NCBI GenBank assembly: GCA_001789205.1
Contig: MFYT01000057.1
Location: 1-45,630 of the forward strand
DNA length: 45,630 bases
Direction of reading: 5' to 3'
Source of the DNA: Candidatus Raymondbacteria bacterium RIFOXYA2_FULL_49_16
GTDB lineage: Bacteria > Fibrobacterota > OXYB2-FULL-49-7 > XYB2-FULL-49-35
Within the stretch, counting starts at the first letter, position 1, and every line of letters starts with the position of its first letter. Below are positions 566 to 30,490 of this stretch, in pieces. The position numbers and the translations under genes are program-made. Under the pieces are notes generated by a model, which saw only the letters and a program-made list of their open reading frames with translations, made no database searches and was not told the DNA's origin.

Positions 566-577
566 TTGGGCAAGCTT

Positions 578-1477
578 ATGCAAAAACAAAACATATTATT
601 TTTATTAATCATTGCTTTCGTTTTACCACTTTTTGCCCGGACAATCAAGACCGGCGACGTGCTCGAGATCACCGTGCCGGGCAACGAGGCCCTGTCGCAG
701 AAGGTGGTGGTGCGCGACGACGGCACTGTCGATTATCCCCTGCTTATGGACCGGAGCGTGGTCGACATGAGCGTGCAGGAACTCATGGACAAGCTCACCT
801 TGGCCGTGGCAAAGGTAGATCCCCAGAACCTGGTGGTGGTAAGCCTCCTTTCCGAGTCAAAACTAAAGGTGCAGGTGCTGGGCCAGGTCATGAAACCCGG
901 CATGGTACTCATCGATAAAGGCGCCTCGCTCCAAGAGGTCTTTGTCTCGGCAGCGGGTTTTACCCCGCAGGCCGACTTGCGATCTATCAAGCTCGTACGG
1001 CAGTCGGACGGCGCGACAACCGAGGAGATTGTTAATCTCGACCGCTTCCTTTCGGACGCGGACCTCTCCATCCTGCCCGATGTCCAGAACGGCGATGTGT
1101 ATATTGTCCCCATGGCCAAAACATCGCGCAACGTGAAGGTCCTGGGCGCGGTCAATCAGCCCGGTTTCTATACGGCCTTTCCCAACGCCAACCTTTTCGA
1201 TCTAATTCAAATGGCTGGCGGCCAGCAGAAAGACGCTGACCTTACTAAGGTGCGCCATATTACCACGTTCGAGGGGAAAAAGGCAGACACAATTATTGAC
1301 CTGCGCAGCTTCTGGGACGAACTGGGCGACACGGAAAAAATCCCCCGGGTGCAGGAAGGCGACATGATCATTGTGTACAAGAAGACCCTTACCTGGTCCC
1401 AGTTCATGGACTATTTGCGGGACTTCGTGACGTTGGTCACCGTGGTCCTCCTGGTGCAGGCCTGGACAACAAACTAG
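578..1477 (+). CDS. Polysaccharide biosynthesis/export protein (Wza-like)
   Basis: A 299-residue protein of the Poly_export/SLBB family, which forms or gates the outer-membrane exit of capsule and exopolysaccharide. The ATG at 578 is preferred over an upstream TTG at 566 because it gives a clean signal peptide (MQKQNILFLLIIAFVLPLFA). The Poly_export domain follows directly (TGDVLEITVPGNEALSQ, DDGTVDYPLL). Two SLBB-like units come next (VLGQVMKPGMV and VLGAVNQPGFY). A hydrophobic helix at the C-terminus (FVTLVTVVLLVQAW) could be the outer-membrane segment. No lipobox cysteine is seen, unlike Wza itself. It is the first gene of a four-gene polysaccharide cluster. The signal-peptide codons are AT-rich while the rest is GC-rich. 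Confidence 0.85.
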   Translation: MQKQNILFLLIIAFVLPLFARTIKTGDVLEITVPGNEALSQKVVVRDDGTVDYPLLMDRSVVDMSVQELMDKLTLAVAKVDPQNLVVVSLLSESKLKVQVLGQVMKPGMVLIDKGASLQEVFVSAAGFTPQADLRSIKLVRQSDGATTEEIVNLDRFLSDADLSILPDVQNGDVYIVPMAKTSRNVKVLGAVNQPGFYTAFPNANLFDLIQMAGGQQKDADLTKVRHITTFEGKKADTIIDLRSFWDELGDTEKIPRVQEGDMIIVYKKTLTWSQFMDYLRDFVTLVTVVLLVQAWTTN

Positions 1478-1489
1478 GGGCGCACGGTC

Positions 1490-3640
1490 ATGGAACACGC
1501 GGGAAAAACATTCAATCTTAAGGACTATGTCACCATTGTCCTGCGGCGCAAATGGAGTCTTCTTGTCATTGTGCTTGCGGTAGTGGCGCCGCTTATCTTC
1601 TACGTGCGCACCATGCCCGACACCTACTTCGCCCAATCCCAGTTGGTCATTGAGGACCTGCGCAATACCAACCCCATGACTCCGCAGATGCTGCGGCCTT
1701 CGCGTTCCTTTGATTTCTACCAGGGCATTTTCAACAGCCGTTCCTTTATCCAGGCGGTCCTGCAAAAAGTAGGCCGGGACACGCTGGCCAAGGCCGCGGG
1801 CGACACTGTCGAGGATAAGCTTGCGGCCTATATCGCCTCGTCCATCTCGCTGTCGCGCGGCGGGTTTGAATCGTTCATCGTCTTATCGGCACGGGCAAGC
1901 CACGCCGGCATGGCGTTCAATCTGGCCCAATCAGCGACCGAGATATTCAAGCTCAAATGCCGCGAAGTGGTGGCCGAAGAAGCGGAGAACACGGTTAAGG
2001 AGACTGAAAAACAGCTCGCTATTATCCGCGACAAGCTTGAGGAGGCCGAACACGCATATCGTCAATACCTCGACAAAACGGGCAATTCCTTCGACGGCGC
2101 CACAACCGAACTCAAGCTGCTCCAGGACAAATATTACGAGATACGGAGCGAATGGGCCTCCAAAGAAGCGATCTACGAGGCCAACCGCCAGTCCCTTGCC
2201 ATGCTTGAGCGAAAGGTGGCGCCCGCCAACACGGATCCCAAAAACGCTGAGCAGTACAACAAAGCCAAGGAGGAACTGCGCAAAAAAGAAAAGGAGAAAA
2301 AGCGGCTCGAGTCCCTGGGCCTGGTCCTTGGCCCTTCATCGCCTATTAACCAGGACATTGACCAGCTCGAGAAAGAGGTGATGAGATACGGGGCAAAAGA
2401 GGAACGGCTCGACGCCAAGGTAGTGGGCCAGTGGCAGAAAATGCGCACCGTGGTCGCTGAAAACGAGATGGAGCTTGACCTGGTGAACAATAAAATGAAG
2501 GTCTACCAGCGCAAGATAGAACAGTACAAAAAGTCCCATCCGGACGAACTGGACCAGTCCCTCGAAGTCTCCCGCCTCGAACGGTCGCGCAAGGTATACG
2601 AGGACACCTATAATATATTGCTTGAACAAGTGGAAGTGGCCAAGATCAAAAAGGCGTCTGAAACCGGCGGGGTCACCGTGGTCGACGCGGTGTATTACCC
2701 CACGTCCGCTGTACCGCGCAAGGAGGCCATTTATTATGTCGTGGGAATCATGGTGGCACTCATGCTGGGCTTCGGGTACATCTTCCTGCGCGAGTTCCTT
2801 GATACCACGGTCAAATCCAACGACGACCTTGAGGCCTACAACATCCCCATCATAGGCACCATTCCCCACATAGACATCGCAAAGTCCGAAGAGATTGAAA
2901 TCCGCAGGCGTAGCAGTTCGTCGTCCTCTAAAGAGGCTGTTACCACCTATCCCAAGGAACTCATCAATTTTTATAAGGACGAGTCCATTGTTGCCGAATC
3001 GTATCGTTCCCTGCGCACCAATCTTTTTTTTACCAGTCCCGATAACCCCCTGCACACGCTTATTGTCACGAGCTCGGGCCCCCACGAGGGCAAGTCGCTT
3101 ACCGCAAGCAACCTTTGCCTTGCCTGCGCCCAGATGGGCAAGCGGACCCTGCTTATCGATTCAGACCTGCGCAGGCCCGTGGTGCACCACCTCTTCCAAC
3201 AGCCGCGGGAAAATGGCTTCACCGACCTTTTCATCGGCAATAGCCTCAAGAGCGTTGTCAGGGAAACAGGACTCGACAATCTTCACGTTATTACCGCAGG
3301 CCGTTTCACGCCCAATCCCTCTGAACTCCTTGCCAGCAAGAAGATTGAGAAGCTCATCGGCGAACTGAAGCTGGAATACGACCTGATAGTCTTTGACACG
3401 CCGCCGGTCATGGCTGTCACTGACGCGCCCCTACTATCGACCAAAGTAGACGGTACGCTTCTTGTCGTCAAGTCCTATTCCACTGACCGGGTCATTCTTG
3501 AACGGGCCATCAATACCATCCAGAACGTGAATGCGAACATCCTGGGGTTTGTCCTCAACGACATCGACCTTTCCCATCGGTACGCGTCGTACGGGTATTA
3601 CAAATATTACTATCACTACTACCGGTCAAAAAAGGACTAA
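1490..3640 (+). CDS. Wzc-like chain-length determinant / bacterial tyrosine kinase
   Basis: A 716-residue inner-membrane protein controlling polysaccharide polymerisation and export. An N-terminal Wzz domain begins after a short cytoplasmic stretch with a first membrane helix near residues 22-38. A long charged coiled-coil periplasmic region (about 170-400) follows, then a second helix near 420-440 (YYVVGIMVALMLGFGYIFL). The cytoplasmic BY-kinase domain has Walker A SSGPHEGKS (K535), Walker A' LLIDSD (D557, D559) and Walker B LIVFDTPP (D636). The last 20 residues contain nine tyrosines, the usual autophosphorylation cluster. Kinase and Wzz parts are fused as in proteobacterial Wzc rather than split as in Firmicutes. 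It starts 12 bases after the export gene. Its phosphorylation probably sets chain length through the export protein; that role is known for the family. Confidence 0.93.
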   Translation: MEHAGKTFNLKDYVTIVLRRKWSLLVIVLAVVAPLIFYVRTMPDTYFAQSQLVIEDLRNTNPMTPQMLRPSRSFDFYQGIFNSRSFIQAVLQKVGRDTLAKAAGDTVEDKLAAYIASSISLSRGGFESFIVLSARASHAGMAFNLAQSATEIFKLKCREVVAEEAENTVKETEKQLAIIRDKLEEAEHAYRQYLDKTGNSFDGATTELKLLQDKYYEIRSEWASKEAIYEANRQSLAMLERKVAPANTDPKNAEQYNKAKEELRKKEKEKKRLESLGLVLGPSSPINQDIDQLEKEVMRYGAKEERLDAKVVGQWQKMRTVVAENEMELDLVNNKMKVYQRKIEQYKKSHPDELDQSLEVSRLERSRKVYEDTYNILLEQVEVAKIKKASETGGVTVVDAVYYPTSAVPRKEAIYYVVGIMVALMLGFGYIFLREFLDTTVKSNDDLEAYNIPIIGTIPHIDIAKSEEIEIRRRSSSSSSKEAVTTYPKELINFYKDESIVAESYRSLRTNLFFTSPDNPLHTLIVTSSGPHEGKSLTASNLCLACAQMGKRTLLIDSDLRRPVVHHLFQQPRENGFTDLFIGNSLKSVVRETGLDNLHVITAGRFTPNPSELLASKKIEKLIGELKLEYDLIVFDTPPVMAVTDAPLLSTKVDGTLLVVKSYSTDRVILERAINTIQNVNANILGFVLNDIDLSHRYASYGYYKYYYHYYRSKKD

Positions 3641-3660
3641 AAAAGTCCGGGAGCGCCGGC

Positions 3661-4260
3661 ATGTATTTTTTTCTCAAGCGTTGTATGGATATAGGGGGCG
3701 GTTTCGCGGGCTGTTGCCTGCTTGCGCTCGTGTTTGTGCCTGTCGCCTTGCTGATCAAATTCACCTCGCGCGGACCGGTCATTTTTTCCCAGGAACGTCT
3801 GACCAAGGGCGAACGTGTTTTCAGGTTTTTCAAGTTCCGCACCATGGCCATTGATCGCGAACTTACCGCTAACGAGCGCAACCGGATTAACGAAATGGGC
3901 GGGCCCATCTTTAAAAGCCGCCTCGACCCGCGCATCACGGCCGCGGGCAGGCTGCTACGCAAGTTCAGCATCGACGAATTGCCCCAGTTCTGGAACGTGT
4001 TTTGGGGAGATATGGCCCTAGTGGGGCCCCGGCCGCCCCTGGTGCATGAGGTCGAATCGTATGAGCCATGGATGCGCCGTCGTCTGACAGTACGCGCTGG
4101 TCTTACCGGATTCTGGCAGGTGATGGGTCGCAGCAACATTGATTTTTACCGCATGATGGAACTTGATATCGATTATGTGGACCATCCCTCCATTTTGAGG
4201 GACATAAAGATACTGCTCCTCACTGTTCCCGCGGTCCTCTCTTCACGGGGGGCCTGGTAA
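3661..4260 (+). CDS. Undecaprenyl-phosphate sugar phosphotransferase, short PglC-like form
   Basis: A 199-residue member of the bacterial sugar transferase family (PF02397). These enzymes move a sugar-1-phosphate from a UDP-sugar to undecaprenyl phosphate and so begin each repeat unit. Visible features are the N-terminal hydrophobic (re-entrant) helix after LKRCMDIGGG, the FRFFKFRTM motif, the catalytic Asp-Glu pair D105-E106 in SIDELPQFWN, LVGPRPPL, and the GLTGFWQV region. The extra membrane domain of WbaP/WcaJ is absent, so this is the minimal monotopic form. The gene sits 20 bases after the kinase gene and 2 bases before the glycosyltransferase. The identity of the sugar cannot be read from the sequence. 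Confidence 0.9.
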   Translation: MYFFLKRCMDIGGGFAGCCLLALVFVPVALLIKFTSRGPVIFSQERLTKGERVFRFFKFRTMAIDRELTANERNRINEMGGPIFKSRLDPRITAAGRLLRKFSIDELPQFWNVFWGDMALVGPRPPLVHEVESYEPWMRRRLTVRAGLTGFWQVMGRSNIDFYRMMELDIDYVDHPSILRDIKILLLTVPAVLSSRGAW

Positions 4261-4262
4261 CC

Positions 4263-5444
4263 GTGCGCATTGGCATGGTGGTATCCGAATACCCGGAGTC
4301 TGGTGCAGGGCACGGCGGTCTTGCCACCTATACCTATTCCATGGCCAATGCCCTTTCCGCAACAGGCAACCAGGTGATCATTCTCCAGAAAGAAGGCATG
4401 CGGGCCGATACGCTCAATCCGGGCGTTTCTGTGCGCGCGATTGCGCCAATGCCCGAGCCCGGACTGCGTGGCCGGCTTTTGCGCCGTCTGTTGCCTGAAA
4501 TCGCGTACCAGCGCGGGTATTCATTTGCCGCGCTCACCCAGTTCAACGCTATTTACAAAGAGCATGGACTCGATGTTGTCCAGATCCCCGAATACAACGG
4601 CGAGGCAAGCACTTTTACCCGGGTGCCCTATGGTCTGGTCGTGCGTCTCCATTCGCCCACGTTTCTCATCGACCGGCTCAATAAGGTGGCCCCCACACTG
4701 CGGCGGCGCGCCTGGTACCGTCTCGAACGCGTTGCGATTGACAATGCCAGGGCCATCACTGCGTCGAGCAACGCCATACGCAGCGAGGTGTGCGCCTATT
4801 GGGGCATTGACGAGAAAACAGTGACAGTCATCCGCAACCCCGTGGACATAGCCCATTTTCATCCCGCACCCCGGGAAGAAGCGCAGGGGCCGGTTAGAAT
4901 CCTGTTTGCGGGCCGTCTGGAGCGGCGCAAAGGGGTCTTTATCATAACCGCGATGGTGAGGGAGCTTTTACGCGCGCACCCGGACGCGCTTTTCACTGTC
5001 GCGGGCGGCACTGCCGGAGATGGCGGCATGGACTATGCCGCGCTTATCCGGGAGGCCGCGGGCAATTGCGCTGACCGCGTTGAATTCCTCGGGCCCTTGC
5101 CGCGCGCGTCTCTTCCGGCAGTGTATCAAAAGGCGGACATTTTCTTTATTCCTTCGCTGTTCGATAATTCTCCCAATACTCTGTTCGAGGCCATGGCCTC
5201 GGGGTGCGCTTGCGTGGGAAGCGACGTGGGCGGCATCAACGAGATGATCGACAATGGGATCAACGGGCTGCTCTTCGACATTACACGGCCAGTGGACGCG
5301 CTGGACAAGTTGGGGTTGCTTATCGCCAACAGGGGCCTGCGAAAGACGCTTGCGGCAGCGGCGCGCAGGAAAATGGAGCAGGAGCACGACCCGGATAGTA
5401 TCGCCGCGCAGACAGTATCTCTCTATCGAACGTTGTCCGCCTGA
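4263..5444 (+). CDS. Glycosyltransferase family 4
   Basis: A 393-residue GT-B fold glycosyltransferase, probably adding the second or a later sugar to the lipid-linked repeat unit. The start is a GTG two bases after the previous stop. The N-terminal acceptor domain begins RIGMVVSEYPESGAGHGGLA. The donor domain contains RILFAGRLERRKGV and the EX7E-like motif, here D301-x7-E309 in FDNSPNTLFEAMASG, so Asp replaces the first Glu. GSDVGGINEMI follows as usual. Its 3' end overlaps the convergent Na/Pi symporter gene by 22 bases, leaving no room for a separate terminator. No flippase or polymerase gene is seen next to it. Confidence 0.88.
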   Translation: MRIGMVVSEYPESGAGHGGLATYTYSMANALSATGNQVIILQKEGMRADTLNPGVSVRAIAPMPEPGLRGRLLRRLLPEIAYQRGYSFAALTQFNAIYKEHGLDVVQIPEYNGEASTFTRVPYGLVVRLHSPTFLIDRLNKVAPTLRRRAWYRLERVAIDNARAITASSNAIRSEVCAYWGIDEKTVTVIRNPVDIAHFHPAPREEAQGPVRILFAGRLERRKGVFIITAMVRELLRAHPDALFTVAGGTAGDGGMDYAALIREAAGNCADRVEFLGPLPRASLPAVYQKADIFFIPSLFDNSPNTLFEAMASGCACVGSDVGGINEMIDNGINGLLFDITRPVDALDKLGLLIANRGLRKTLAAAARRKMEQEHDPDSIAAQTVSLYRTLSA

Positions 5445-7429
5445 AGCAGGCAGAAGTCGAATATACGGTATACGTGGTTGCCGATCTGTTCGTAGGTGCT
5501 GATAAGCTGGAGTAAGTGCTGGCCTGTTTCGGGCGTGTAGGCTGCCTTGCCAATGGCCTCAATGAGCAGCGCCTTTGTCCGTTCCTCGGCCCGGTTGATG
5601 GCGATCTCACGATAGCGTATCTCCGCCTTTGTCAGATATGCCGGGTCGTCGAGGACCGCGCCGAGGTCTTCCATGAAACCGATGATCTTGCCGCTCAGGT
5701 CTTTCACCTGTTTTTCTAGTTCACCAGTCAGGGTCACATTGTGCCGGTCAAGGGTCAATACCGACGTGAGGGCCCTGTGCGCCAGCGAACTGATTTTGTA
5801 GAGTTCCACGACCGTGTACATGGACTGTTCCAGCTTCAGCACATTAACGCTATATCCGCTTATTTTCATGAGACCTGATATTTTCGCGACCACGGCGCCA
5901 TGCAGGTCGCCCATGGATGTCAGGAGCGCCTCCATTTCCCTGAGTCCCGCCTCGGGGCCTGCCGAGAGCATCTGTTCAAGGCGATGCAGCAGCCGCTGGT
6001 CTATCAGCGACATGTCGCGTATCTTCTCCGCTATTTTTTGCAGCGTGGCCCCCTGGTCCCGCACGCCAACGCTTTCCAGTTCCTTCTCGGTCTTTGATTG
6101 TTCGTGCGGATACCATTTCACCGCCAAGCGCTCCAGCAGCCGCAGGAAGGGCAGGGCCGTAAGGGCCGAAAGGAGGTTCAGCGCAAGGAAGGCCACGGAG
6201 ACGTGAAGGCCGATGAGTGGATAAATGATCTTTTTGTCAGGATCGATCAGGTATGGAGAGCCCGGCACCAGGGCGTCCACCAGGCCGGGCAGAAAAGGAA
6301 AGGCCGCCAGCGCGACAACGCTTCCCCAGGTGTTGATCAGAAAATGGCCGCAAGCCGTGCGTTTGCCTGTCACCTCCCCGAAGCGCGCCACGAGGAGCGG
6401 GACCAGGGGCACACCGAAATTGACGCCCATAAGCACAGCCACGCATGAGGGAAGATCAAAGAGCCGCGTGGTCTGCGCAATGCCCACCAGAAGCACGGTG
6501 GCCGCTCCCGAGCTCTGGAGGGCCATGACCAGCAGCGCACCCGCTATAAAGCACAAGGCGAACCCTGTGGGCGTGGCGGCCGAATACGCGGAAAAGAAAT
6601 CAATGACCGCAGGATGGCCCTCGAGCGGGGTAAAGCCGTTTTCCAGGATATGCACGCCATAAAACAGGAAGCCCGCGCCAAGCACGAGATCGGGTAAAAA
6701 CCATTTGTACCGCCTTCCCCGCGAAACAACCGTGAGGGCTGCTCCGGCTGCAATAATGAGAATGGCGTGTTTGGCAATGCCGAACTGGAGGAAAAAGGCG
6801 GTAATTGTTGACCCTATGTTGGCGCCCACAAGCACCCAGAGGCACTTGGAAAGTGTTATGATGCCAGCGTCCGCAATGCCCAGCAGCAGCAGGCCCGCGG
6901 AAGTGGACGACTGCGAGACCGACGAGAGCAGGGCGCCGGTGAGAAAGGCAAGCCAGGGATTGCGCACCATCACGTCGATGATGCGCCGAATGCGGCGGTC
7001 CGTATATTTCCGCAGGCCAGCGGTGAGGGTAAAGACGCCCAGAAGCAGAAAGGCCAAGCCACCGAGCATGAAGCGGATGATTTTGGGCGTATTAAGCGTG
7101 ATCACGGAAATCAGGAAGGGTTTGCTTTTTTCATCGCGGTTGAACACGCGGATCTTGGTCTGCCCTTCGTTGAGCGTATAGGGCAGCTTGATCACCATGC
7201 TGTCGTGGCGCGCAAAAAGCACCTGCGCGGACGCTTTATCCACGGTCACTTGCGCACCTCCGCTGTCTGGGACAAGACCGCTGCCCACTATGGTGACCGT
7301 GGCACCGGCATAACATTCCTCGGGATATACCCGTTCAATAACCGGCCGGAGAATCTCCGCTCCGCCACCAAGTGACCACAGGACAAAAAGCGTGGCAAAA
7401 ACAACAGGAACCATTCGCGAAACGGGCAT
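5423..7429 (-). CDS. Na/Pi cotransporter with N-terminal IPT/TIG domain and C-terminal PhoU-like domain
   Basis: A 668-residue inner-membrane phosphate symporter of the PF02690 family. The ATG at 7429 is chosen because it overlaps the stop of the VTC gene as TGATG and has GGGGA upstream; a further upstream ATG at 7453 is possible. After a signal-like helix comes an IPT/TIG Ig-like domain (VIERVYPEECYAGATVTIVG), predicted to be periplasmic. Two inverted membrane repeats follow with the family hallmarks SVSQSSTSAG plus GANIGST, and ALQSSGAATV plus GVNFG. The last 200 residues form a soluble helical PhoU-like domain. An extracellular Ig-like domain on this transporter is uncommon. It is the last gene of the operon, and its neighbours (porin, polyphosphate polymerase) support phosphate uptake. 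Confidence 0.88.
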   Translation of the reverse strand: MPVSRMVPVVFATLFVLWSLGGGAEILRPVIERVYPEECYAGATVTIVGSGLVPDSGGAQVTVDKASAQVLFARHDSMVIKLPYTLNEGQTKIRVFNRDEKSKPFLISVITLNTPKIIRFMLGGLAFLLLGVFTLTAGLRKYTDRRIRRIIDVMVRNPWLAFLTGALLSSVSQSSTSAGLLLLGIADAGIITLSKCLWVLVGANIGSTITAFFLQFGIAKHAILIIAAGAALTVVSRGRRYKWFLPDLVLGAGFLFYGVHILENGFTPLEGHPAVIDFFSAYSAATPTGFALCFIAGALLVMALQSSGAATVLLVGIAQTTRLFDLPSCVAVLMGVNFGVPLVPLLVARFGEVTGKRTACGHFLINTWGSVVALAAFPFLPGLVDALVPGSPYLIDPDKKIIYPLIGLHVSVAFLALNLLSALTALPFLRLLERLAVKWYPHEQSKTEKELESVGVRDQGATLQKIAEKIRDMSLIDQRLLHRLEQMLSAGPEAGLREMEALLTSMGDLHGAVVAKISGLMKISGYSVNVLKLEQSMYTVVELYKISSLAHRALTSVLTLDRHNVTLTGELEKQVKDLSGKIIGFMEDLGAVLDDPAYLTKAEIRYREIAINRAEERTKALLIEAIGKAAYTPETGQHLLQLISTYEQIGNHVYRIFDFCLLQADNVR

Positions 7430-8208
7430 CAGGTCCCCGCATTTCTGACACATTGGGCGCAGGCCCGGAATTTTGAGAAATCAGACTGAGGAAGATCGCG
7501 CAACGCGCCTGAAAGCCATGCGGGCACCACATCGAGGTATTTGATTTCGAGAATGGTGTTTTTTTCATTGCCCAACGCAGGGGGAAGATGCTCTTTGATA
7601 AGGGCTTTTTTCTCCGCAAAGAGGTCAATGGGCGGCCGGTGAAAGGTGAGGTCTGAATCAAAGGAGATCCGGAGCGTGCCTTCCTGGTCCTGAAATGCGT
7701 CCCGCTGGTAGTTTGCTATAGACGCTGGGGCAATGGTCTGGTCTCCTGTTGTCCGCGCAAGCAGGTCTCTGATTGCCTTGAAAAAATCAACGCACTCCTG
7801 ACTCTGGTTTTCGGCAATGAAGCGCAGCACATCGTTGCACGCTGTTTTGGGTATTTGTACCCTTTTTTTCGCAGTCACATCGTCTGTGCGGCTTTTTATC
7901 TCAAGAAATACATGGGGCGGATATTCGAAGAGCGAGTCAAAATCGCGCGCATGCTCAACCAGTTCAGCGTCGAAATAATAATATTCCTTGGCCCGTATTT
8001 TCGCGTTATGTTTCGGATTGTCCTCGTTTTGCCTCAGGAAAAAGAAATCCGGCGTGTCAAAATAGATGGTTGATACCAGAGTGAGCATTTTTCCAGGGGT
8101 ATGAACATGCCGCGCCAGGTTTTCAGCGACCAGTTTTCTTAAGCGCAATGCGGAGGCGCGGGGCAGAAGGTATTTCAGCTCGTTTCTGTTCCTGGTCAGC
8201 TGGTTCAC
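7429..8208 (-). CDS. VTC-domain polyphosphate polymerase
   Basis: A 259-residue protein of the VTC family (PF09359). In yeast Vtc4 this tunnel-shaped domain makes polyphosphate from ATP. Expected tunnel motifs are visible in order: RNELKYLL, STIYFDTPD, KIRAKEYYY, VFLEIKSR, YQRDAF, RISFDSDL and ILEIKYLDVVPAW. The length is that of the bare catalytic domain; no SPX sensor or membrane segment is attached. The GTG at 8208 is preferred because it begins just before the conserved RNELKY and lies five bases after the lipoprotein stop with AGGGG upstream; a TTG at 8262 would overlap that gene. Bacterial VTC proteins are often next to DUF4956 genes, as here. The protein is predicted to be cytoplasmic, probably membrane-tethered through DUF4956 (inference). 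Confidence 0.87.
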   Translation of the reverse strand: MNQLTRNRNELKYLLPRASALRLRKLVAENLARHVHTPGKMLTLVSTIYFDTPDFFFLRQNEDNPKHNAKIRAKEYYYFDAELVEHARDFDSLFEYPPHVFLEIKSRTDDVTAKKRVQIPKTACNDVLRFIAENQSQECVDFFKAIRDLLARTTGDQTIAPASIANYQRDAFQDQEGTLRISFDSDLTFHRPPIDLFAEKKALIKEHLPPALGNEKNTILEIKYLDVVPAWLSGALRDLPQSDFSKFRACAQCVRNAGT

Positions 8209-8213
8209 CTGCG

Positions 8214-8786
8214 TTATCCCCTGTTGGGCAAGCAGGGTGTGGGAAAACTTTGCTGGCACCAAGTGGGCGCGCCGTCCTGGACCCTGCCATACGACTTGTT
8301 CGTCACCCGTGCCTCGGGTATGGCGCTGAAATCGATGAGGTCGGCTATGGACGTGTCCGCTGTTCGGTAGAGGCCAATGACCTCGCCCAGGCCCGCGGAG
8401 AGGCGGAAGGGCGCATGGTTGGGAAATTCGTTCAAGGAATCATGGTCGCACCAGAGTATGTAAAACCCGCCGGGCTGCAAGACAGTGTCGTCGAGAGCGT
8501 ATTGCAGAGGATCAAGGGTATCATCAGTGACCCACAGGCCGACCAGGCTCATGGCCGAGTCCCCGGCATTGTAAAATTCGATCCAGTCTGCCGCGTCGCT
8601 CTGATCGTCGAGTATTATGGTGTCGGCGCCCAGCTGCCTGTTGCTGGTCATGAATTCATTGATCACGATTTTTCCCGCTTTTCCCTCAGTATCATCGGGC
8701 GTAACCGGTATAGCGTCTTTTCCGCCGCAGTGCAGCAGGCAGAGGCATGCCATTGTTGCAAGCAGGAGCGTAAGCAGTGTACGCAT
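8214..8786 (-). CDS. Lipoprotein with lamin-tail-like domain
   Basis: A 190-residue predicted lipoprotein. The ATG at 8786, preceded by AAGGAG, gives a signal peptide ending in the lipobox LLHC; a longer start at 8837 would hide it. The mature part starts with a linker, then IVINEFMTSN, DWIEFYNAGDSAMSLVGLWVTDD, PGGFYILWCD and FRLSAGLGEVIGLY, which fit the lamin tail domain (LTD, an Ig-like fold). LTD proteins are commonly found beside or fused to CotH kinases. The role is not known: LTDs are thought to bind surfaces or polymers. The gene starts one base after the DUF4956 stop, so the two are translationally linked. Confidence 0.78.
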   Translation of the reverse strand: MRTLLTLLLATMACLCLLHCGGKDAIPVTPDDTEGKAGKIVINEFMTSNRQLGADTIILDDQSDAADWIEFYNAGDSAMSLVGLWVTDDTLDPLQYALDDTVLQPGGFYILWCDHDSLNEFPNHAPFRLSAGLGEVIGLYRTADTSIADLIDFSAIPEARVTNKSYGRVQDGAPTWCQQSFPTPCLPNRG

Positions 8787-8787
8787 T

Positions 8788-9270
8788 TTATCGAACTCCT
8801 TCACTGGGCGCATTGTCCGGTCCGGCAGGTGCGGCATTTTCGCTCTCCACGGTCCTGATTTTGTCCAACACGATCAGGATAACGTATAGAAAGCCCACCA
8901 CCAGCACTGCGGGTACATACATGCCCACGCCCACGGCCATGCCGATCGCGATAAGAATAAAGATGATGGCTGTGTCCATGGCGCTTTTTACCGATGTCCT
9001 GAACCGGATGAAGCTCCCCAACCCAAAGAGGCCAAAGGCCCGCGCCACACTGTTGCCAATGACCAGTATCATGACCGTACCCGCAATGCAGATGAGAATC
9101 TGCGCTTTGGCAATGGTCATACGCTTGGGCTTTTTGCGGATCTTGTCCAAGGCAGTGACGTGGAAGGCTATGACAGCGCCGAGTATCGTGGAAACGCACA
9201 ATTTGAGAATAAAAGCGACCGCGGTCGTTGACTGCGCGGCCTCAGGCAGGGTTTTCAGGAATTCTGGCAT
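8788..9270 (-). CDS. DUF4956 membrane protein
   Basis: A 160-residue membrane protein matching the DUF4956 pattern. It has a first helix (FILKLCVSTILGAVIAFHVT), a basic loop (DKIRKKPKRMT), helices at AQILICIAGTVMILVIGNSVARAF, the conserved FRTSVKSAMDTA segment, then two helices to VILIVLDKI. The ATG at 9270 has AGGAG eight bases upstream; an earlier start at 9309 would overlap the kinase gene more. DUF4956 has no proven activity, but its genes often neighbour VTC-domain genes. A job as membrane anchor or channel partner for polyphosphate synthesis is an inference from that. Confidence 0.8.
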   Translation of the reverse strand: MPEFLKTLPEAAQSTTAVAFILKLCVSTILGAVIAFHVTALDKIRKKPKRMTIAKAQILICIAGTVMILVIGNSVARAFGLFGLGSFIRFRTSVKSAMDTAIIFILIAIGMAVGVGMYVPAVLVVGFLYVILIVLDKIRTVESENAAPAGPDNAPSEGVR

Positions 9271-10939
9271 AGGGAGCGCTCCTTGTCCTTTTGTCCTCTC
9301 GTTCGACAATGCTTTTCAGGAAAAGCCTGTTCTTAAACATCGCTTTTTTCGCCCGCGCAATCCAAGGGTTCTTTTCATAGGTGAAGGCGTTGTAGACAAT
9401 GCCCATGCTGTCCAAGACAAGACTGGGAAAGTTGCCGAACAACCGCGACCTGATCGCGTCAGCCTCGGGACAGGCCATATGTTTCAGGGAATCGAGCACC
9501 TGCGGATAAGCGTCAAGACATTGGTTTCGCAGCGCCCACGATTCCGGATCGTCGCAGAATTTGAGCGACCAGGCCACTGCCTTTGGCGCTTTTTTTATGG
9601 ACTGTTTCCGTTGGGCGTGCGCCGCCTCTGTTTGCAGGCCGGTCAGGCTCAGCAACACAAAGAGCGCATGCGTGTCCTGAAATTTTTCACGCATGTCCCA
9701 TGCAAATTCCGTATCGATTCCCGCAAGCGATTGCAGTAGCGCGTCAGCGTATTTTTTCTTTGCGAGCCGCGACCGCAGTCCAGCCGCGGTATCGGTTTGG
9801 ATACCCGCAAGGGAAATAAGGACTTCTTGCGGATGGTTGTCCAGCCCGCGGAGTCTCAGTTCATGCGCCCAGGACTGGTCAATGCCTTTGAGCGAACGGA
9901 TGACCAGTTCCGGGGTTTTGTTAAAAAGTTCTTGCCGCAGCTTTTGCGATTCTTTAGTGACTATCAAATTGTGCTGGGCCCAGGCCACATGGCGCGGAAA
10001 GGCCTCTTTTAGCCGATGAAAATAGCCAAAGGCCTTTGGATCGACCAAGTTCTTTAAACTATAGAGCAGCATTTCCGGGCTCGTTTTTACCAGGGTCTCC
10101 CGCATGGTATAGGCCTGGTCAGATCCAATACCCTGGAGAAAATACCCAATGAGTTGAGGCGATAGCCCTTCGAGGGATTGGTAAAAGGCCTTAGTCACGC
10201 TCTTCAGGTTTTTTGCGGGTTCGCGTTCTACGCAAGCCAAATGATACGATGAGCCTTTTGCAGGAGCCGGCCGCTTTTGTAATCCGATTTTTTTCGCGTA
10301 TTTTTGCCCTATGACGGCCCAAATCCGGGAAAAGGCCTGGTCCAGGGTCAGACAATCGTTGGGAACAATGGTCCAGGTGCGGTGCTTCTCTCTTGCCAGG
10401 GAAATGAAACCATTACGCACCCTTTGCCTGAGCTCAATGCCTGCAAGCCCTTTTCTGCCAAAATCATCTGGCGCGGTCTCTTTCAGGTATTTCTGGATTT
10501 TTTTTCGCACCTGGCTCGTGGTAATGTCTACATCGCACAGAAAAACCATGTCAGGCTCAATCCCCGAAGTGAGAGGGCGTATCAGACGCTCCATGATTTT
10601 ACGGTCCAGGCCGCGGCCGTGCACGGAAAGGACCAAGTGACTGTAGAAGCAGCGGTCAGTGATGACAAAGACATCTTTTTTCTTCAAGGGAAGGATTGTT
10701 TCCTCGAGCAGCTGGCGTTCGCGGGCAAGATAGAGCAGGGCTTCGGTAAAGTCCCCCATCATTAGATGGTTGGGGTTGCGCGACAGGGTCCGTATTTCCC
10801 GCGAAATGGGCGACTGAAGTTCTCCGCCCGAGCGCGTATGATACACGGCAAGGCCTCTGCGCCGCAGCTCTTCTTCGAGCATTTTGGACAGGGCGGTTTT
10901 GCCGCTTCCGTCAATGCCTTCAAAATCGATCAGGATCAT
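9242..10939 (-). CDS. Thymidylate-kinase-like P-loop protein with C-terminal 28-residue helical repeats
   Basis: A 565-residue two-part protein. Residues 1-215 resemble dTMP kinase: P-loop FEGIDGSGKT (K14), TDRCFYS (DR motif) and a lid-like region near KYLKETAPDDFGRKG. Residues about 250-515 hold nine or ten helical repeats of about 28 residues with the pattern P-x-x-V-x-x-SL-x-G-I-D-x-x-x-A-x-x-LR. Housekeeping dTMP kinases are about 210 residues and have no such tail. Polyphosphate kinase 2 belongs to the same P-loop superfamily, so a nucleotide or polyphosphate phosphotransfer role linked to the VTC enzyme is possible but unproven. The ATG overlaps the porin stop as ATGA. The 3' end overlaps the DUF4956 gene by 29 bases. 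Confidence 0.8.
   Translation of the reverse strand: MILIDFEGIDGSGKTALSKMLEEELRRRGLAVYHTRSGGELQSPISREIRTLSRNPNHLMMGDFTEALLYLARERQLLEETILPLKKKDVFVITDRCFYSHLVLSVHGRGLDRKIMERLIRPLTSGIEPDMVFLCDVDITTSQVRKKIQKYLKETAPDDFGRKGLAGIELRQRVRNGFISLAREKHRTWTIVPNDCLTLDQAFSRIWAVIGQKYAKKIGLQKRPAPAKGSSYHLACVEREPAKNLKSVTKAFYQSLEGLSPQLIGYFLQGIGSDQAYTMRETLVKTSPEMLLYSLKNLVDPKAFGYFHRLKEAFPRHVAWAQHNLIVTKESQKLRQELFNKTPELVIRSLKGIDQSWAHELRLRGLDNHPQEVLISLAGIQTDTAAGLRSRLAKKKYADALLQSLAGIDTEFAWDMREKFQDTHALFVLLSLTGLQTEAAHAQRKQSIKKAPKAVAWSLKFCDDPESWALRNQCLDAYPQVLDSLKHMACPEADAIRSRLFGNFPSLVLDSMGIVYNAFTYEKNPWIARAKKAMFKNRLFLKSIVEREDKRTRSAPYARIPENPA
9395..10185 (-). repeat. Tandem 28-residue protein repeats (nine to ten units)
   Basis: This is the coding region for the repeat array of the kinase-like protein. 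Clear units start PELVIRSLKGIDQSWAHELR, PQEVLISLAGIQTDTAAGLR, YADALLQSLAGIDTEFAWDM and PQVLDSLKHMACPEADAIR. The units are divergent in DNA, so this is an old array rather than a recent slippage product. A two-helix (HEAT-like) solenoid is the simplest reading. Confidence 0.7.
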
Positions 10940-11973
10940 TCTTCTTCCCCGGCGCTGGTTTTTCCGCCCAAGTCAATGCATGGCTGGAAGAGCACACTCA
11001 ACATAAAAGAATCGTCCTCTAGCGTCCGCAAAGACGTGGTGTATCCATTGGAGTGGTTCAGCCGTATCTGCAGTTCTTTGTTCACTATAAAATCAATGCC
11101 CTGCCGCAATGCCACATCTCTGCTATTATCCGGACGCGATATAAGTTCAATACCCAGGGCAAACCGTACGACATATGGCCCTGCATTCCTGGAAAAGACC
11201 TGGTCTGTGACCAGCGCATAGCGCAGGGGATCCACTCCGGACACATAGCGCGCAATACTGTCGCTGCCCCACAAGGCTTCGTAGCGGCCCTTGTACCACG
11301 CCACCGGCTCGTGCGTCAGACCCGCATTGTTGAACACTGCCTGGTATTCCTGGCCCGGCACGCGTTCAATGTCGCTGTAGGCTATGGCATATTCAGCAGC
11401 AAGGATTTTCAGGGGCTTCCACCTGACCCGTGCTGCCGCAAGTTCGAGCAGGTTATATCCGGAAACCAGGTTTGCCCTGTTGTTGAAAATACCTATGCCA
11501 TAGGATGTCTTAAACGGCAGTTTGCCATGGACCATGAGACCATCCTGGTAGCCCGCCATTTGGGCGTCCTTGACCATGCCGGATGAGCGGGAACGGTCTA
11601 CAAAAGCAAGTTTCGCCGGACCGGTGAGCACTTCCATGCCAAAAGGTACTTTAAATCTGCCGATTTTCACTTTAATCTGTTTTTTTAATGTCGCGTCAAT
11701 AAAACAGGTGTTTAAAAAATAGGGCGTACCCGATTCAGTGAAGTCAACTTTTATCTCAGCGTCGTAGGCAAATCCGGCCGCAGCATTCTCCGTAACCAGC
11801 GCGAGCCGCGCCCTTTTAAACCCGAATGCACCGCTGCCGCTGTCTATACCCATGTCAGGGAGCGAACATTCATATATGGGTTGCAGGGTGGCTTCAAGCG
11901 ATGCAGAAAAGAGGGTCATCGGCAAAACGAGGGCTGCCAGGATAATGACGCGTACGGGAAGTAAACGATTCAT
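10936..11973 (-). CDS. Outer-membrane porin, OprP/OprO-like (phosphate-selective type)
   Basis: A 345-residue protein with a signal peptide (cleavage after LFSASLEA) and alternating amphipathic strands typical of a beta-barrel. Segments such as FKRARLALV, YDAEIKVDF, KIGRFKVPFGMEVLTGP and DGLMVHGKL match the OprO/OprP family pattern (PF07396). The protein ends in an acidic tail (TSAGEEE) rather than the usual aromatic last residue, which is unusual for a barrel. The ATG at 11973 has AAGGGG upstream and lies 12 bases after the stop of the protease-like gene. The stop overlaps the kinase ATG. Phosphate selectivity is inferred from the family and from the symporter and polyphosphate polymerase in the same operon. 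Confidence 0.72.
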   Translation of the reverse strand: MNRLLPVRVIILAALVLPMTLFSASLEATLQPIYECSLPDMGIDSGSGAFGFKRARLALVTENAAAGFAYDAEIKVDFTESGTPYFLNTCFIDATLKKQIKVKIGRFKVPFGMEVLTGPAKLAFVDRSRSSGMVKDAQMAGYQDGLMVHGKLPFKTSYGIGIFNNRANLVSGYNLLELAAARVRWKPLKILAAEYAIAYSDIERVPGQEYQAVFNNAGLTHEPVAWYKGRYEALWGSDSIARYVSGVDPLRYALVTDQVFSRNAGPYVVRFALGIELISRPDNSRDVALRQGIDFIVNKELQIRLNHSNGYTTSLRTLEDDSFMLSVLFQPCIDLGGKTSAGEEE

Positions 11974-11985
11974 GGCTGCGACCCC

Positions 11986-14900
11986 TTATTTCACGAGAAG
12001 CATTTTACGTTCTTTGACGTAATTGCCTGCTGTTATCCGGTAGATATACACACCGCTGGCAATTCCCTTGCCCATGTCGGATCTCCCATCCCAGATGGCA
12101 GAATAATAGCCAGGCTTTCTAACCTCATTCACCAGTGTGCGTACCAACTGGCCACGGATGTTATAGATTTCAAGGCGTGTGAAATGGCTATTCTGTAACC
12201 CTGTGCGGTGCGGTATATCGTACTTGATGGTAGTCGTAGGATTAAACGGATTCGGCATGTTCGGATATAGAGCGAATACTGTCGGGTACTGCTCAGTGAG
12301 GGCCTGCTGTTCTTTGGCACCCTTTGCCATGCCTATGCCATACCCATCTGCCCCAATGTCCCAGTTAACCCTTGTGCCGCCATCTATATCCGCAACAAAC
12401 ATAGAGCTCAGATCTGCACCAGCGTTCTTAGCATAACTGGAAGTTTGAATATGCAGGTTTTCTGAACCTGTTGTGGTACTAACAAATGCCGCCTGGGCCA
12501 AAGTCACATTCCCAATGTTCTTTGTCGGGCTGCCAAGGGCAATTATCGAAGCATCTGAGGAAATGTTGTTCGTATCATCAGCCTGTATGGCATTGGCATA
12601 ATTAACGGCAAAATCAGGGTTGTTCTGGATGCACAGGTTATTGATAAGCACATTGGGACCGCTTTCAAGTCGTATGCCCGCCCCACCGCAGTTATAGACC
12701 GTATTATTCACTATTACAGGGGGATCATAGGTCTGTCCACAGCCCGACTCTATACCTCCCTGGCTCATGTTGAAGACGAAATTGTTGTATACACTGTCAT
12801 GGCGGGTGTTGTATACGACAGTTACACCCTTAGCGCCATCATGAAGGACACAATTCCGTACACATGAATAACTACCGGCTAAATATACTCCATAGGAATT
12901 CGTGTTCTTGATCTCAAGGTTGTCTATGGTCGTGTAACTGGTGTAGATGTTCCATGCATCAGCGTTACAGTTAATAGTCACTCCTATGCCTGCAATTCCG
13001 GTATGGCGGTTATTGGGCGCTGCGGTAATGGTCAAACGATGCCCGGCATCAGTTGTCCAGTCGCCAATGGTCTTCTTGGTGTATATGCCGGTGCCGTCTT
13101 TATAGAGAATGGCGATTTCGCTCTGGTCTGCTGATACAAGATTCCGGTTCTGATTTTCCCAAGCATCAAATGTTGAATACCGGCGTTTAATGTAATAGTC
13201 TGTGCCAGCGTAAGATGTTGTGGGATATGTTGTTAGCAATAGAGAGCCATTGGACAACACTGAATCTACCGTGTAACCAGCACTGGAATTTATTACGATG
13301 CTGTCGCCTTTTCCTCTATTGCTGGTAAGCCAGGTTGTTCCTGTGCCTGTAACCATGCGGGAACCTAGCGTAACGGTTATGGTCCCTTCCGCATAGTTTG
13401 AAGCACTTCCAATGGATACATACCGCATGTTCGCAGATGGGGGTTGTGGTATTTCACCATCTTTGTACTCGTCTGCTCCAATGTCCCATGGAACGGTCCT
13501 GACTGAATCGTCTATGTCTTTTTTGAATTTCTGAGACAAATCCAGGCCTGCGTCGCGGGCTATGCTGTTTGGCCCTATATGCAGGTTTGGAGAATTGGTG
13601 GAGGGGTTAGCAAAGGCCAATTGGGTAAGGGTTACGTTGGCGAAATTGTCTGATGAGCCGGTAACCTGGGTAATAGAACCGTCGCCGGATATGTTACGAA
13701 TATCGTCTATACCCAAAGCATTTGACCAGTTTTCTGCAAAGTCCGGGTTGTTACCATAGCAGATATTGTTCACAACTACATTGTTCCCGCTTTCCACTCT
13801 GATGCCTGCACTGTCGCAGTTAAATACGGTATTGTTGGCAATAAAGGGGGGATTGTAGGTTTGGCCGCAGTCTGATTTGATGCCTTCGGCTGACATGTTG
13901 TAGATAGTGTTATTGTAAAGGCTGTCGTGGTTGTTGTTGTATTCGATATAAGGGCCACGGATACCATCTCTGATAATGCAATTACGGATGGTTGTGTAGT
14001 CACCTCCAACATAAATGCCATATCCTCCGGTGTTACGGATATCGAGGTTTTCAATGGTTACGTATGAGGGGTAGAGGTTCCAGGCATTTGCGTTGCAGTT
14101 GAGGACAACACCGGAGCCTTGAACGCCATTGTGTTTGTTTCCTGCTGTGATGGTGAGACGATAATCAGCACTGGTGGTCCAGGTACAGCTGCCGTCCCAA
14201 GTGCCGATACCTTGGGCAATGTGTTCAGAGCCGTCGTTATACAGAATGGCGACTTCGCTTTCCTGGGCAGAAACCAGGTTACGGCATTGGGAGGCCCAGG
14301 CTTGGAAGGTGGGGTATTTTCTTTTAATTACATATGATCCTGAGAATGTTTGCGTAGGGTAAGATGTCAGAACAAGACGTGTCTCTGAGGTTACGGAATC
14401 GATTGTATACCCAACCCCGTTGATTATGATGCTATCTCCCCTCCCGCGGTTTCCCGTGAGCCATAAAGTATTAAAACCAAAAATCTCCTTCTTTGCAGAA
14501 TTGACGGATAATGTGCCCGTTGAGTAATCAACGGCACTTCCTACAGAAACATAATGTGAAGTTGGCCCTTCTTCCTCGATAACATATTGTCCTGGTGGAA
14601 CATCAATTAAACAGGTAATTTTTCCAGACGGGAAAACTGCTTTCACGTCACAATTGATACTATCCGCAAATTTGAAAGTTGCGTAAGGCTGGTAATATCC
14701 AATATTGCCAGACTGACAATTATTGATTGTCGATGCACCTATAATATAATCAGGGTCGCCAAGATGCCCGCTTTGGTATGCATATACCTTCCCGCCTATT
14801 CCACCAACATTACTATAGCCAGCACCATAAGCGTCATATTTACCTCGAAGGGCAATTTTGAAAATTGCAGTTCCAGGCCATTCGTTTTTCAATATTTTGT

Positions 14901-20373: not shown

Positions 20374-22872
20374 TTATTTCAGCAGGGTCATCTGTTTTAC
20401 CAGGGTTGTGTTTCCGATTTTTGCCCTGACAATATAAATTCCCGAAGGCATGCCGGATGCGTCCCAGACGAATGAATTACGAATTACGAATTGCGAATTA
20501 CGGTTGTTTTGTGTCACATCACAAACCATTTCCCCTTTTATACTATATATTTTTACATTCGTAATTCGTAATTTTGAATTCGTAATTGTAATTGTTGTCG
20601 TCGGATTAAACGGGTTGGGATACACCTCGAGCATATCGCGCGAGGCCACACCGGGAACGTCATCGACTTTGTCCACCCCTTTGTCCGAACCAATGACCGA
20701 GAAGATCATGTCAAAGACCGCGTCGCTGCTCGATAGGCTGGAGTTGTGCAGTTCGACAGCGAGGATGTTCTCTCCCTGGACAAGAAGATGGTTTGTGTCA
20801 GGCACGTAAAAGAGCGTGTAGGTATCGTTTTCACGTGAGATAAGCGAAGGAGAATCATTTCCAGCCGTGGGAGAGAGGTTGTCGCGCAGCACTTCCCCGC
20901 CGTTCAGATAGACCGCAATGCCGTCATCGTACCTGATGTCGAACCGCAGCCAATCGACCAGTGACGCTGAATCGGGGAAAGTAAATTTTTTCCTGAAATA
21001 TAGGGTGTAGCCCGATGAGTTCAGGGTATTGGTGGTGTTGACGGACCATTCGCCAAAACCCAAAGGCGCTGTTCCCGTGTTCCACGATACGTCAAACGCC
21101 GGGTCGGTTTTCCATGTTACGGCAAGCGGCTGGTGCGCGTCGTTGTATTTCCAGCTCTGGTTCCGCAGCACAAGTTCCCAGGCCATGTCTTTGTTGCGGT
21201 TTATCTTGGTCAGCATCCGGTTGAGCCAGATGGGTCCAACCACCTTGCGCGTCGCAAGAAAAGTGTCTGTGAGCATAAAGGTGGTGTCAAGGTCCCGCAG
21301 CACAGCCGCCTGGTCGCCGGGTTTCCAGCGGTCTATCTCGTAGGACGCAAAGGGCAGGAATTCAGCCTTGTTTTTCGTCAGCACAGCCTTGATTGAGTCA
21401 ATCTGCAAGGCGCCGTAGTGAACCGCCTGCTTCCAGGCATAGTAGAAATGGTTCTGAAAGGGTTCGTATGAAAGAAGTGAGTTGAAAAGACCCCTGATGA
21501 GGTTGGCCTGGATGCCTGCTTCGGTCGTGAAGCTGGCCGGTGGATTGATTCTGTTCTGCCAGACGGGTATGCCGCCTACAACAGTGGGCTGGACGTTCAG
21601 TATCGAGGTCATATAGGCATCGTCGATGCGCCAGTATTCCGAGACCGGCGGCCATTCCCACCAGGTTTGTCCCAGGGTATATTCGCCATCCCAGGGCAAA
21701 AAGCGGAATTTTCCGCCGGTTACGCCCAGTGTGTCGCGCTCGCGCGCCACTACCCAGTTGTTGTTGGGCCAGTCCCAGTTCTGGAGAAAGATGTTGAGCG
21801 TCATGTATTTGCAGAAGAGGCTGATGTCAAGAAGGTTGGAGAGCGAGGCATAGTCGTTTGCGGTCAGCTGTTTGTTGGTATAGGTGATCAACTGGTTGAG
21901 GGCGGTCATGTCTCCGGAAACGATTTCACCCTGGTTGTTGATGTCCCACGCCGGATAGTTGTAGTGGTCGGAAAAGAATTCTTCGTCCATTCTCTCGGCA
22001 ATATTGTATACGCCCCAGAGCGTGGTGTTCAGATAGAGAAGCGCAAAACGGCTGTGCGCGCTCAATTCGCCCATGTTCCGGTACAACTCGCGCTCTACCG
22101 CGTCCCTGATGTATATTGACCGCCGGTTTCGTTCCTCCATGAGCGCGTCAAAGGGCGGATACGACCAGGCATCCGAAAACCCCGCTTTGAGAACCAGTTT
22201 GTCGAATTTTGCCAATGTCATGTCCGGAAAGACCTGATAGCGCAGTTTTGTTGACCCATAGTCTTCGCGGAAATAGAGACGGAATGATTTTTTCGGGGAT
22301 TTCCAGCGCGATGCGCCGCCGTGGATACGGACCCCGGCGTTTTCGGAAAAACCCACGGTATTGCCCGGCTCAAAGAGCGTGACATTGCACGCCCGTTCCC
22401 ACGCGGAACCGTGCAGCATGGAATTGTTGATTGTGGAATCGTTGGCGGCATCGCCGTAGAGGAGGCAGTAGATACCGGAATCGGGGTCCCACAAATTTCC
22501 CGAATCAGTGACAAGCGAAATAATCGGGATGTCCGTGGGAAACCCGTAGAGATAGTTTTTAGTCACTATCCGCGAGTGCACCGTGTTCCAGAATACAGCG
22601 GCCCGGATTACGGTCGTGCTGTTGATGGGAATAGCGCCGGTATAGGTTGTTGACGACATTGTGGGGTTCGAGTAATTGGTCGTGTATTTTATGACTCCTG
22701 ATGGGCAGTCTGTTGTAATAGTCACGGAAATTGCGCTGGTCTTAATGCCCTGTTCCTCGGAAAAGAACACGGCATAGGTCGTATCATAGCTTAAGACCTG
22801 ACTTTGTGCAGCATTGGCGAAAAGTACGAACGCTGTAAAGCAAAATACGTACAGTAGGATGTTTTTTTTCAA
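20374..22872 (-). CDS. CotH-kinase family secreted protein with sorting domain
   Basis: An 832-residue protein from a TTG at 22872, which gives a standard signal peptide (KKNILLYVFCFTAFVLFANA). An ATG at 22968 with AAGGG upstream would add 32 residues and is the alternative. Residues about 40-115 fit a chitobiase-type Ig-like domain (CHB_HEX_C_1). The CotH domain has GVRIHGGASRWKSPKKSFRLYF, ALLYLNTTLWGVYNIAERMD, NWDWPNNNW and FRFLPWDGEYTLG. CotH proteins are atypical kinases that phosphorylate proteins, and often neighbour VTC and DUF4956 genes. A beta-sandwich region and a PNPFNPTTTI sorting domain ending in TLLK follow. The sorting domain carries inserted 7-base repeats. It is transcribed toward the phosphate operon but separated from it. 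Confidence 0.88.
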   Translation of the reverse strand: MKKNILLYVFCFTAFVLFANAAQSQVLSYDTTYAVFFSEEQGIKTSAISVTITTDCPSGVIKYTTNYSNPTMSSTTYTGAIPINSTTVIRAAVFWNTVHSRIVTKNYLYGFPTDIPIISLVTDSGNLWDPDSGIYCLLYGDAANDSTINNSMLHGSAWERACNVTLFEPGNTVGFSENAGVRIHGGASRWKSPKKSFRLYFREDYGSTKLRYQVFPDMTLAKFDKLVLKAGFSDAWSYPPFDALMEERNRRSIYIRDAVERELYRNMGELSAHSRFALLYLNTTLWGVYNIAERMDEEFFSDHYNYPAWDINNQGEIVSGDMTALNQLITYTNKQLTANDYASLSNLLDISLFCKYMTLNIFLQNWDWPNNNWVVARERDTLGVTGGKFRFLPWDGEYTLGQTWWEWPPVSEYWRIDDAYMTSILNVQPTVVGGIPVWQNRINPPASFTTEAGIQANLIRGLFNSLLSYEPFQNHFYYAWKQAVHYGALQIDSIKAVLTKNKAEFLPFASYEIDRWKPGDQAAVLRDLDTTFMLTDTFLATRKVVGPIWLNRMLTKINRNKDMAWELVLRNQSWKYNDAHQPLAVTWKTDPAFDVSWNTGTAPLGFGEWSVNTTNTLNSSGYTLYFRKKFTFPDSASLVDWLRFDIRYDDGIAVYLNGGEVLRDNLSPTAGNDSPSLISRENDTYTLFYVPDTNHLLVQGENILAVELHNSSLSSSDAVFDMIFSVIGSDKGVDKVDDVPGVASRDMLEVYPNPFNPTTTITITNSKLRITNVKIYSIKGEMVCDVTQNNRNSQFVIRNSFVWDASGMPSGIYIVRAKIGNTTLVKQMTLLK
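20474..20593. repeat. Two blocks of 7-base CGAATTA-type repeats in inverted orientation inside CotH
   Basis: Block 1 (20474-20502) is four units of GAATTAC with one variant. Block 2 (20557-20593) is the reverse-complement type (TTCGTAATTCGTAATT and more). The blocks could form a large hairpin. They are translated as RNSQFVIRNSF and NSKLRITNVKI inside the sorting domain without breaking the frame. Confidence 0.8.
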
Positions 22873-22994
22873 GGACCACCTTGCTTTTTTTGTTTGTATG
22901 AGGATGCCGCTACTAGACACGGGTATAATGCGAGGAACGGCAGTCGCATAGCCTGCAGATGATTGCATTTCTGATCCCTTCCCCACCCATGTCC

Positions 22995-23012
22995 CAGGTT
23001 TTTTGAAACCTG
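22995..23012. other. 7-base-stem hairpin between CotH and the Cys-rich gene
   Basis: CAGGTTT-TTTG-AAACCTG forms a perfect stem. It lies just downstream of the 23078 stop on the minus strand, but no T-run follows in that direction. It may be a weak transcript end or an RNA-stabilising hairpin. Confidence 0.3.
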
Positions 23013-23077
23013 TGATAAAAAAATAACCGTTCAAGCGGGACAATACAAGATAATAAGCGGAGGATTTTTTGGATGGT

Positions 23078-26594: not shown

Positions 26595-26631
26595 TATAAT
26601 CAAAATCCTCTCATACCAAGCCAATTTGTAA

Positions 26632-26736
26632 AAAATAACTCTTCCGGATCGCGAAAACAAGAAAACAAGATTGTCCGCAAAGAATGTCCATGGCGGCAAT
26701 TATCAGGTTGGTTTCCCGGCTTGGAAGAGTTATTTT
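26632..26736. promoter_or_regulatory. 14-base inverted repeat in the divergent control region
   Basis: AAAATAACTCTTCC at 26632-26645 is repeated as its exact reverse complement at 26723-26736. Each copy therefore reads GGAAGAGTTATTTT toward the gene it precedes, about 38 bases before the transporter ATG and 22 bases before the membrane-protein ATG. The paired, gene-facing layout suggests a shared regulator site or duplicated leader element. Confidence 0.5.
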
Positions 26737-28960: not shown

Positions 28961-28978
28961 GATGTTTCCTTTCGAGTG

Positions 28979-30463: not shown

Positions 30464-30490
30464 GACAGTCTCCTGTTGTAAGTGTGGATA

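Follow-up and report, generated by a model that had tools for sequence, protein, structure and literature searches.

Does a compact, phosphate-themed gene set in Candidatus Raymondbacteria bring phosphate in for storage, or does it make polyphosphate and send it out? The set lies in a 45,630-nucleotide stretch of the genome (hereafter the window) and encodes a porin, a kinase-repeat protein, a DUF4956 protein, a lamin-tail-domain (LTD) lipoprotein, a VTC-domain polymerase and a TIG-Na/Pi transporter. The first-pass annotation had described these genes as one tight transcription unit serving phosphate uptake and polyphosphate storage. With refined starts, all six ORFs are on the minus strand, packed between positions 11973 and 5423, and their named families score above curated cut-offs (Table 1). 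Neighbouring genes overlap or are spaced by 1-5 bp. The porin and kinase-repeat genes overlap by 4 bases (ATGA) and the kinase-repeat and DUF4956 genes by 29 bases. One base separates the DUF4956 gene from the LTD lipoprotein gene, five separate the latter from the VTC gene, and the VTC stop shares one base with the TIG-Na/Pi start (TGATG). Most of the starts are preceded by purine-rich, ribosome-binding-like sequence. This packing supports the single transcription unit. Upstream lies a gene for a 1956-aa secreted protein, separated from the porin start by 12 bases. With so little space between them, the transcript may start further up, and the secreted protein gene is possibly co-transcribed with the operon.

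Table 1. Features of the window, with refined starts for the operon genes.
Feature	Positions	Strand	Length	Matches and remarks
Porin (Porin_O_P-family outer-membrane barrel)	10936..11973	-	345 aa	signal peptide; PF07396 41.1 bits
Kinase-repeat protein	9242..10939	-	565 aa	PF02223 77 bits; TIGR00041 92.7 bits
DUF4956/MgtC-like inner-membrane protein	8788..9270	-	160 aa	PF16316 39.1 bits; PF02308 31.9 bits
LTD lipoprotein	8214..8786	-	190 aa	signal ending LLHC; PF00932 39.7 bits
VTC-domain polyphosphate polymerase	7429..8208	-	259 aa	GTG start; PF09359 104.4 bits
TIG + Na/Pi transporter	5423..7429	-	668 aa	PF02690 118 bits; PF01833 30.8 bits
Secreted protein	11986..17856	-	1956 aa	weak C13-peptidase-like N-terminus, FG-GAP, repeated beta-helix, FlgD/T9SS-type tail
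CotH kinase with T9SS-type sorting tail	20374..23130	-		PF08757 82.6 bits; PF18962 42.8 bits
YgbA_NO family protein	23078..23623	-		144.8 bits; ~77 aa ahead of the domain
ABC transporter genes	23410..26699			
Fused solute-binding and ABC permease protein	24261..26699	-	812 aa	single ORF; extracellular solute-binding domain + ABC permease domain
Class III aminotransferase, aldehyde dehydrogenase, ornithine cyclodeaminase/mu-crystallin	27683..31495	-		consecutive
Exopolysaccharide cluster	566..5444	convergent to operon		export protein, Wzc-like, sugar transferase, glycosyltransferase

The VTC protein consists of the VTC domain alone (PF09359 cut-off, 23 bits) and has neither a transmembrane segment nor an SPX domain. 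It keeps the tunnel columns that are invariant in the family: R8, K12, R72, E103, K105, K114, R169, R180, D184, E221, K223, S245 and K246. R72 and E221 are equivalent to R264 and E426 of yeast Vtc4, and K74 stands at the position of R266, a conservative change. Catalysis is impaired in the yeast complex when Vtc4 carries R264A/R266A/E426N (PMC9911596). When used as a PDB query, the window VTC sequence alone gave no relevant match; the VTC family profile matched Vtc4 (3G3Q, E = 1.5e-15). As far as sequence can tell, the window VTC has a tunnel lined like that of a polyphosphate polymerase and would have that activity. Tunnel metalloenzymes are diverse (PMC4641920), and the window VTC combines a long branch with the R266-to-K change, so it might instead be a tunnel enzyme of other activity, such as a tripolyphosphatase or another triphosphate enzyme. 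We regard this as very unlikely given that, of the tunnel-enzyme families in Pfam, the protein matches VTC alone, and that no solved structure is closer to the family profile than Vtc4.

VTC and DUF4956 are each encoded once in the genome, and side by side. The linkage of these two families, which the first-pass annotation had given as known, is borne out by their neighbours in the phylum, probably Fibrobacterota: DUF4956 is present at 28 of 29 VTC loci. Among 14 control genomes, the three with VTC matches are also the three with DUF4956 matches, an agreement expected by chance 1 time in 364. Only locus L048 lacks DUF4956; its VTC gene (2668-3432), the second in genome G025, follows genes for a calcineurin-like phosphoesterase and a beta-helix protein. 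Neither PPK1 nor PPK2 was found in the Raymondbacteria genome. When 61 genomes were compared (this one and 60 relatives), 33 encoded VTC without PPK1, 12 encoded both, 12 encoded PPK1 without VTC and 4 encoded neither. These counts indicate that genomes with VTC tend to lack PPK1 and vice versa (Fisher p = 0.001, kinship uncorrected).

The window DUF4956 protein is short and diverged. It exceeds the PF16316 cut-off of 30.6 bits, and its hydropathy profile has three or more hydrophobic segments. In the alignment it retains the FGLFGLGSFIRFRT motif, and the conserved R(F/Y)R, as part of (I/L)R(F/Y)R, lies beside the transmembrane helices. The chain stops at residue 160, without the C-terminal soluble domain of its relatives.

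We compared the surroundings of the 29 VTC loci, typing neighbours by Pfam on representatives and by phmmer on the others. An outer-membrane conduit is present at 26 of them. Eighteen loci (type I; L031-L045 and L057-L059) have the layout [CotH]-DUF4956-HlyD adaptor-TolC/OEP channel-VTC-LTD. HlyD and TolC/OEP occur in all 18, and LTD was not detected in one, L037. The type I loci are mutually related and therefore represent far fewer independent events than 18. Ten further loci (type II) have the layout [CotH or Cthe_2159]-VTC-DUF4956-Porin_O_P-like barrel, with the barrel in 8 of the 10; the porin scores of type II representatives, 18.4-25.0 bits, straddle the Pfam cut-off of 20.9. The VTC tree separates the two types (support 99/98). 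Genome G021 holds one of each, L037 with HlyD/TolC and L055 with a porin, and an eCIS_core domain protein (104 bits; L055:3175-5412) adjoins the latter.

The window fits neither layout exactly. Its VTC falls on the type I side of the tree, where its placement is unsure because the branch is long, and its DUF4956 scores best with type I. For its porin and LTD protein, the best match is type II locus L055 (phmmer E = 7.5e-17 and 1.7e-19, respectively). Judged by these similarities, the window adds a third layout, a mosaic that is type I-like in VTC/DUF4956 and L055-like in porin/LTD, with the porin where type I has HlyD/TolC. To the first-pass annotation, the combination of VTC and DUF4956 with a porin, a symporter and a kinase-repeat protein seemed new. 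The kinase-repeat and Na/Pi genes are beside VTC in 0 of the 29 loci; the porin and LTD genes are no novelty there, as they recur beside VTC/DUF4956, best at L055. No other genome of the phylum shows the exact order of the six genes, an outcome that the annotation itself had named as one that would refute its reading. This comparison covers the phylum only, and the same six genes may recur in other phyla.

Because HlyD adaptors and TolC channels normally work together in export, we favour polyphosphate synthesis that is coupled to transport outward, much as yeast VTC feeds the vacuole. In yeast, VTC moves the chain across the membrane as it makes it: the nascent polymer enters a basic membrane channel via basic transmembrane residues (PMC9911596). 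We tentatively propose, at somewhat less than an even chance, that the products of the operon form a polyphosphate synthase-translocase that has its outlet in the outer membrane. Building on the observed families, catalytic-residue conservation, gene linkage and recurring outer-membrane partners, we infer the following route. Cytosolic VTC would convert ATP to polyphosphate, and DUF4956, as inner-membrane partner, would probably guide the chain over the inner membrane, like the yeast Vtc1/TM1 helices. The porin would provide passage through the outer membrane in the position held by HlyD and TolC in related operons, although its family is a general one and passage of a polyphosphate chain through it is putative. 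The LTD lipoprotein would work at the envelope, perhaps binding the polymer or its partners. The TIG-Na/Pi transporter may balance phosphate across the inner membrane, by import or export, and the kinase-repeat protein would probably act in the cytosol, feeding or gating VTC as a phosphotransferase or regulator.

A plasmid search with VTC gave one distant match, a VTC-DUF4956 pair in Acetoanaerobium (Bacillota), with no HlyD/TolC or porin partner at the locus. That such a pair exists without a channel partner counts against the export reading; it is also what one would predict were the extra genes devoted to the outer membrane. The matching record (L106, NZ_CP154629.1) is labelled a plasmid, is 2.6 Mb long with 4 annotated features, and is probably a mislabelled Acetoanaerobium chromosome.

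We found no paper that gives a cellular role for bacterial VTC and DUF4956. That HlyD/TolC or a porin repeatedly accompanies the pair yields a specific proposal, namely that bacteria may export polyphosphate by the synthesis-coupled logic with which yeast fills its vacuole. A bolder generalization, possible but doubtful, would make the VTC-DUF4956 pair of bacteria a machine dedicated to polyphosphate secretion. It would link chain synthesis to passage over the inner membrane and, where there are two membranes, to an outer-membrane outlet (HlyD-TolC or porin) recruited at least twice, so that polyphosphate would end up at the cell surface. The window would then be a third version, one that includes its own kinase-repeat protein and phosphate transporter. 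Polyphosphate export of the proposed kind would explain why the module is found at exopolysaccharide and surface loci, and VTC genes in genomes would be reread from storage to surface chemistry.

The opposite direction, uptake and storage, would have the porin and the Na/Pi symporter import phosphate and VTC make cytosolic granules, assisted by DUF4956, LTD and kinase proteins. Several features fit. Phosphate porins are among the members of the Porin_O_P family, and, with no PPK in the genome, VTC could be the storage enzyme. The transporter belongs to the Na/Pi family (NF037997, 105 bits, above cut-off) and has two intact QSS motifs, QSSTSAG at 173 and QSSGAAT at 305. A possible C-terminal PhoU domain scores 13.8 bits, below the cut-off of 23.5. 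Most aligned homologues start near window residue 116, and the N-terminal TIG part therefore lies outside the shared region. This transporter family is present in 133 of 168 genomes of the phylum, but is absent from the 29 VTC loci compared. The porin match, above its cut-off of 20.9 bits, covers residues 49-167 only (~120 residues), and membership of a general porin family would not imply phosphate selectivity. The PHO box suggested for the operon was absent just upstream of both the porin gene and the 1956-aa gene; 7 weak PHO-box-like sites were found against 3.0 expected, using a gammaproteobacterial consensus that may not apply here. PstB is encoded elsewhere in the genome, which therefore has a separate Pst system. 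Finally, the relatives pair VTC-DUF4956 with HlyD/TolC and not with uptake genes. We consider uptake and storage quite unlikely. From that earlier proposal the polymerase tunnel residues and the DUF4956 linkage stand, whereas the inward direction is disfavoured by the HlyD/TolC or porin of the relatives.

The kinase-repeat and Na/Pi genes are outside the conserved module. They may be passengers that arrived by chance or for the sake of expression, with no polymer role, beside a conserved VTC-DUF4956-porin-LTD module; this is compatible with export. The kinase-repeat protein has a thymidylate-kinase domain (residues 1 to ~215) followed by ~300 aa of 27-28-residue repeats. The domain passes TIGR00041 (cut-off, 83.25 bits) with an intact P-loop, GIDGSGKT. 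The dTMP kinase substrate motifs are lost, with RSGGE for REPGG and SHLVLSV for SxxAYQG, and a canonical tmk (183 bits) is encoded elsewhere in the same genome (C5). From its motifs, the protein is best classed as an extra, diverged dTMP-kinase relative. No match to PPK2 (PF03976) was obtained, and a search of 84,980 species genomes, by a method reaching close relatives only, returned ordinary dTMP kinase alone. Autocorrelation of the repeats peaks at lags of 27 and 55, exceeding all 300 shuffles. The repeat region matched no Pfam family, and in the 167 other genomes of the phylum (168 in all) nothing rose above weak noise as a convincing relative (best E = 0.002). An AlphaFold model of the protein, made with no alignment, had a pLDDT of 34 and was discarded. 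The restricted occurrence of the repeat region and the absence of both genes beside VTC elsewhere favour passengers. Against this, the overlapping starts and stops (ATGA, TGATG) suggest co-translation, and both genes are phosphate- or phosphoryl-related. On balance, a passenger status for the pair is somewhat unlikely.

The surroundings of the operon raise another possibility, that the VTC, DUF4956 and LTD proteins act together with CotH on a layer of exopolysaccharide or secreted protein, modifying or regulating it, with polyphosphate as a modifier or co-factor and not the end product. Gram-positive pel operons are adjoined by CotH, polyphosphate polymerase and DUF4956 genes, CotH being the usual third partner (PMC7112168). 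In Streptococcus intermedius, deletion of the MgtC/ACT-like membrane gene or of the CotH gene changed Pel level and aggregation; for deletion of the streptococcal VTC gene no such change was reported (PMC12345266), a point that also counts against the export reading. The window offers a convergent exopolysaccharide cluster and a CotH kinase that ends in a T9SS-type tail, as do many of its secreted proteins. The CotH gene shares the strand of the operon but lies outside the tight set, 8 kb distant. Pel families were absent from the Pfam matches of the window. In the relatives, the conserved VTC neighbours are DUF4956, a channel, LTD, and CotH or Cthe_2159; polysaccharide genes were not systematically sought there. 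A matrix-helper role of this kind, modelled on streptococcal and clostridial Pel loci, seems unlikely to us. Between the CotH and ABC transporter genes lies a YgbA_NO family gene, and the gene row directly upstream of the transporter genes resembles an operon for the breakdown of amines or amino acids.

How does the proposed synthase-translocase compare with known systems? The twisted-stalk cluster (PMC8250860) was considered as a relative and rejected; it shares CotH only, and VTC is absent from the text of that paper. The yeast VTC complex (Vtc1/Vtc3/Vtc4) resembles the window in its tunnel domain with matching catalytic positions and in joining a polymerase to a small membrane protein. Its catalytic subunit, however, has SPX and fused transmembrane domains, both missing from the window VTC, and the window partner is DUF4956, not a Vtc1-family protein, in a double-membrane cell with a porin. 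The Gram-positive pel accessory set (PMC7112168, PMC12345266) shares VTC, DUF4956 and CotH with the window. Here, though, CotH is non-contiguous and has a T9SS tail, no pel genes are adjacent, and porin, LTD, kinase-repeat and Na/Pi genes are added. The VTC/DUF4956/CotH trio was sought outside Pel loci and not found (PMC12345266); relatives of the window within the phylum do have the trio, accompanied by channel genes. Type I loci share VTC, DUF4956 and LTD with the window, whose VTC and DUF4956 are closest to theirs, but the gene order differs, and the window has a porin in the absence of HlyD and TolC together with the extra kinase-repeat and Na/Pi genes. Type II locus L055 (VTC-DUF4956-CotH-porin-LTD) is without those two extra genes and has VTC and DUF4956 of another clade; what it shares with the window is a homologous porin and a short LTD lipoprotein.
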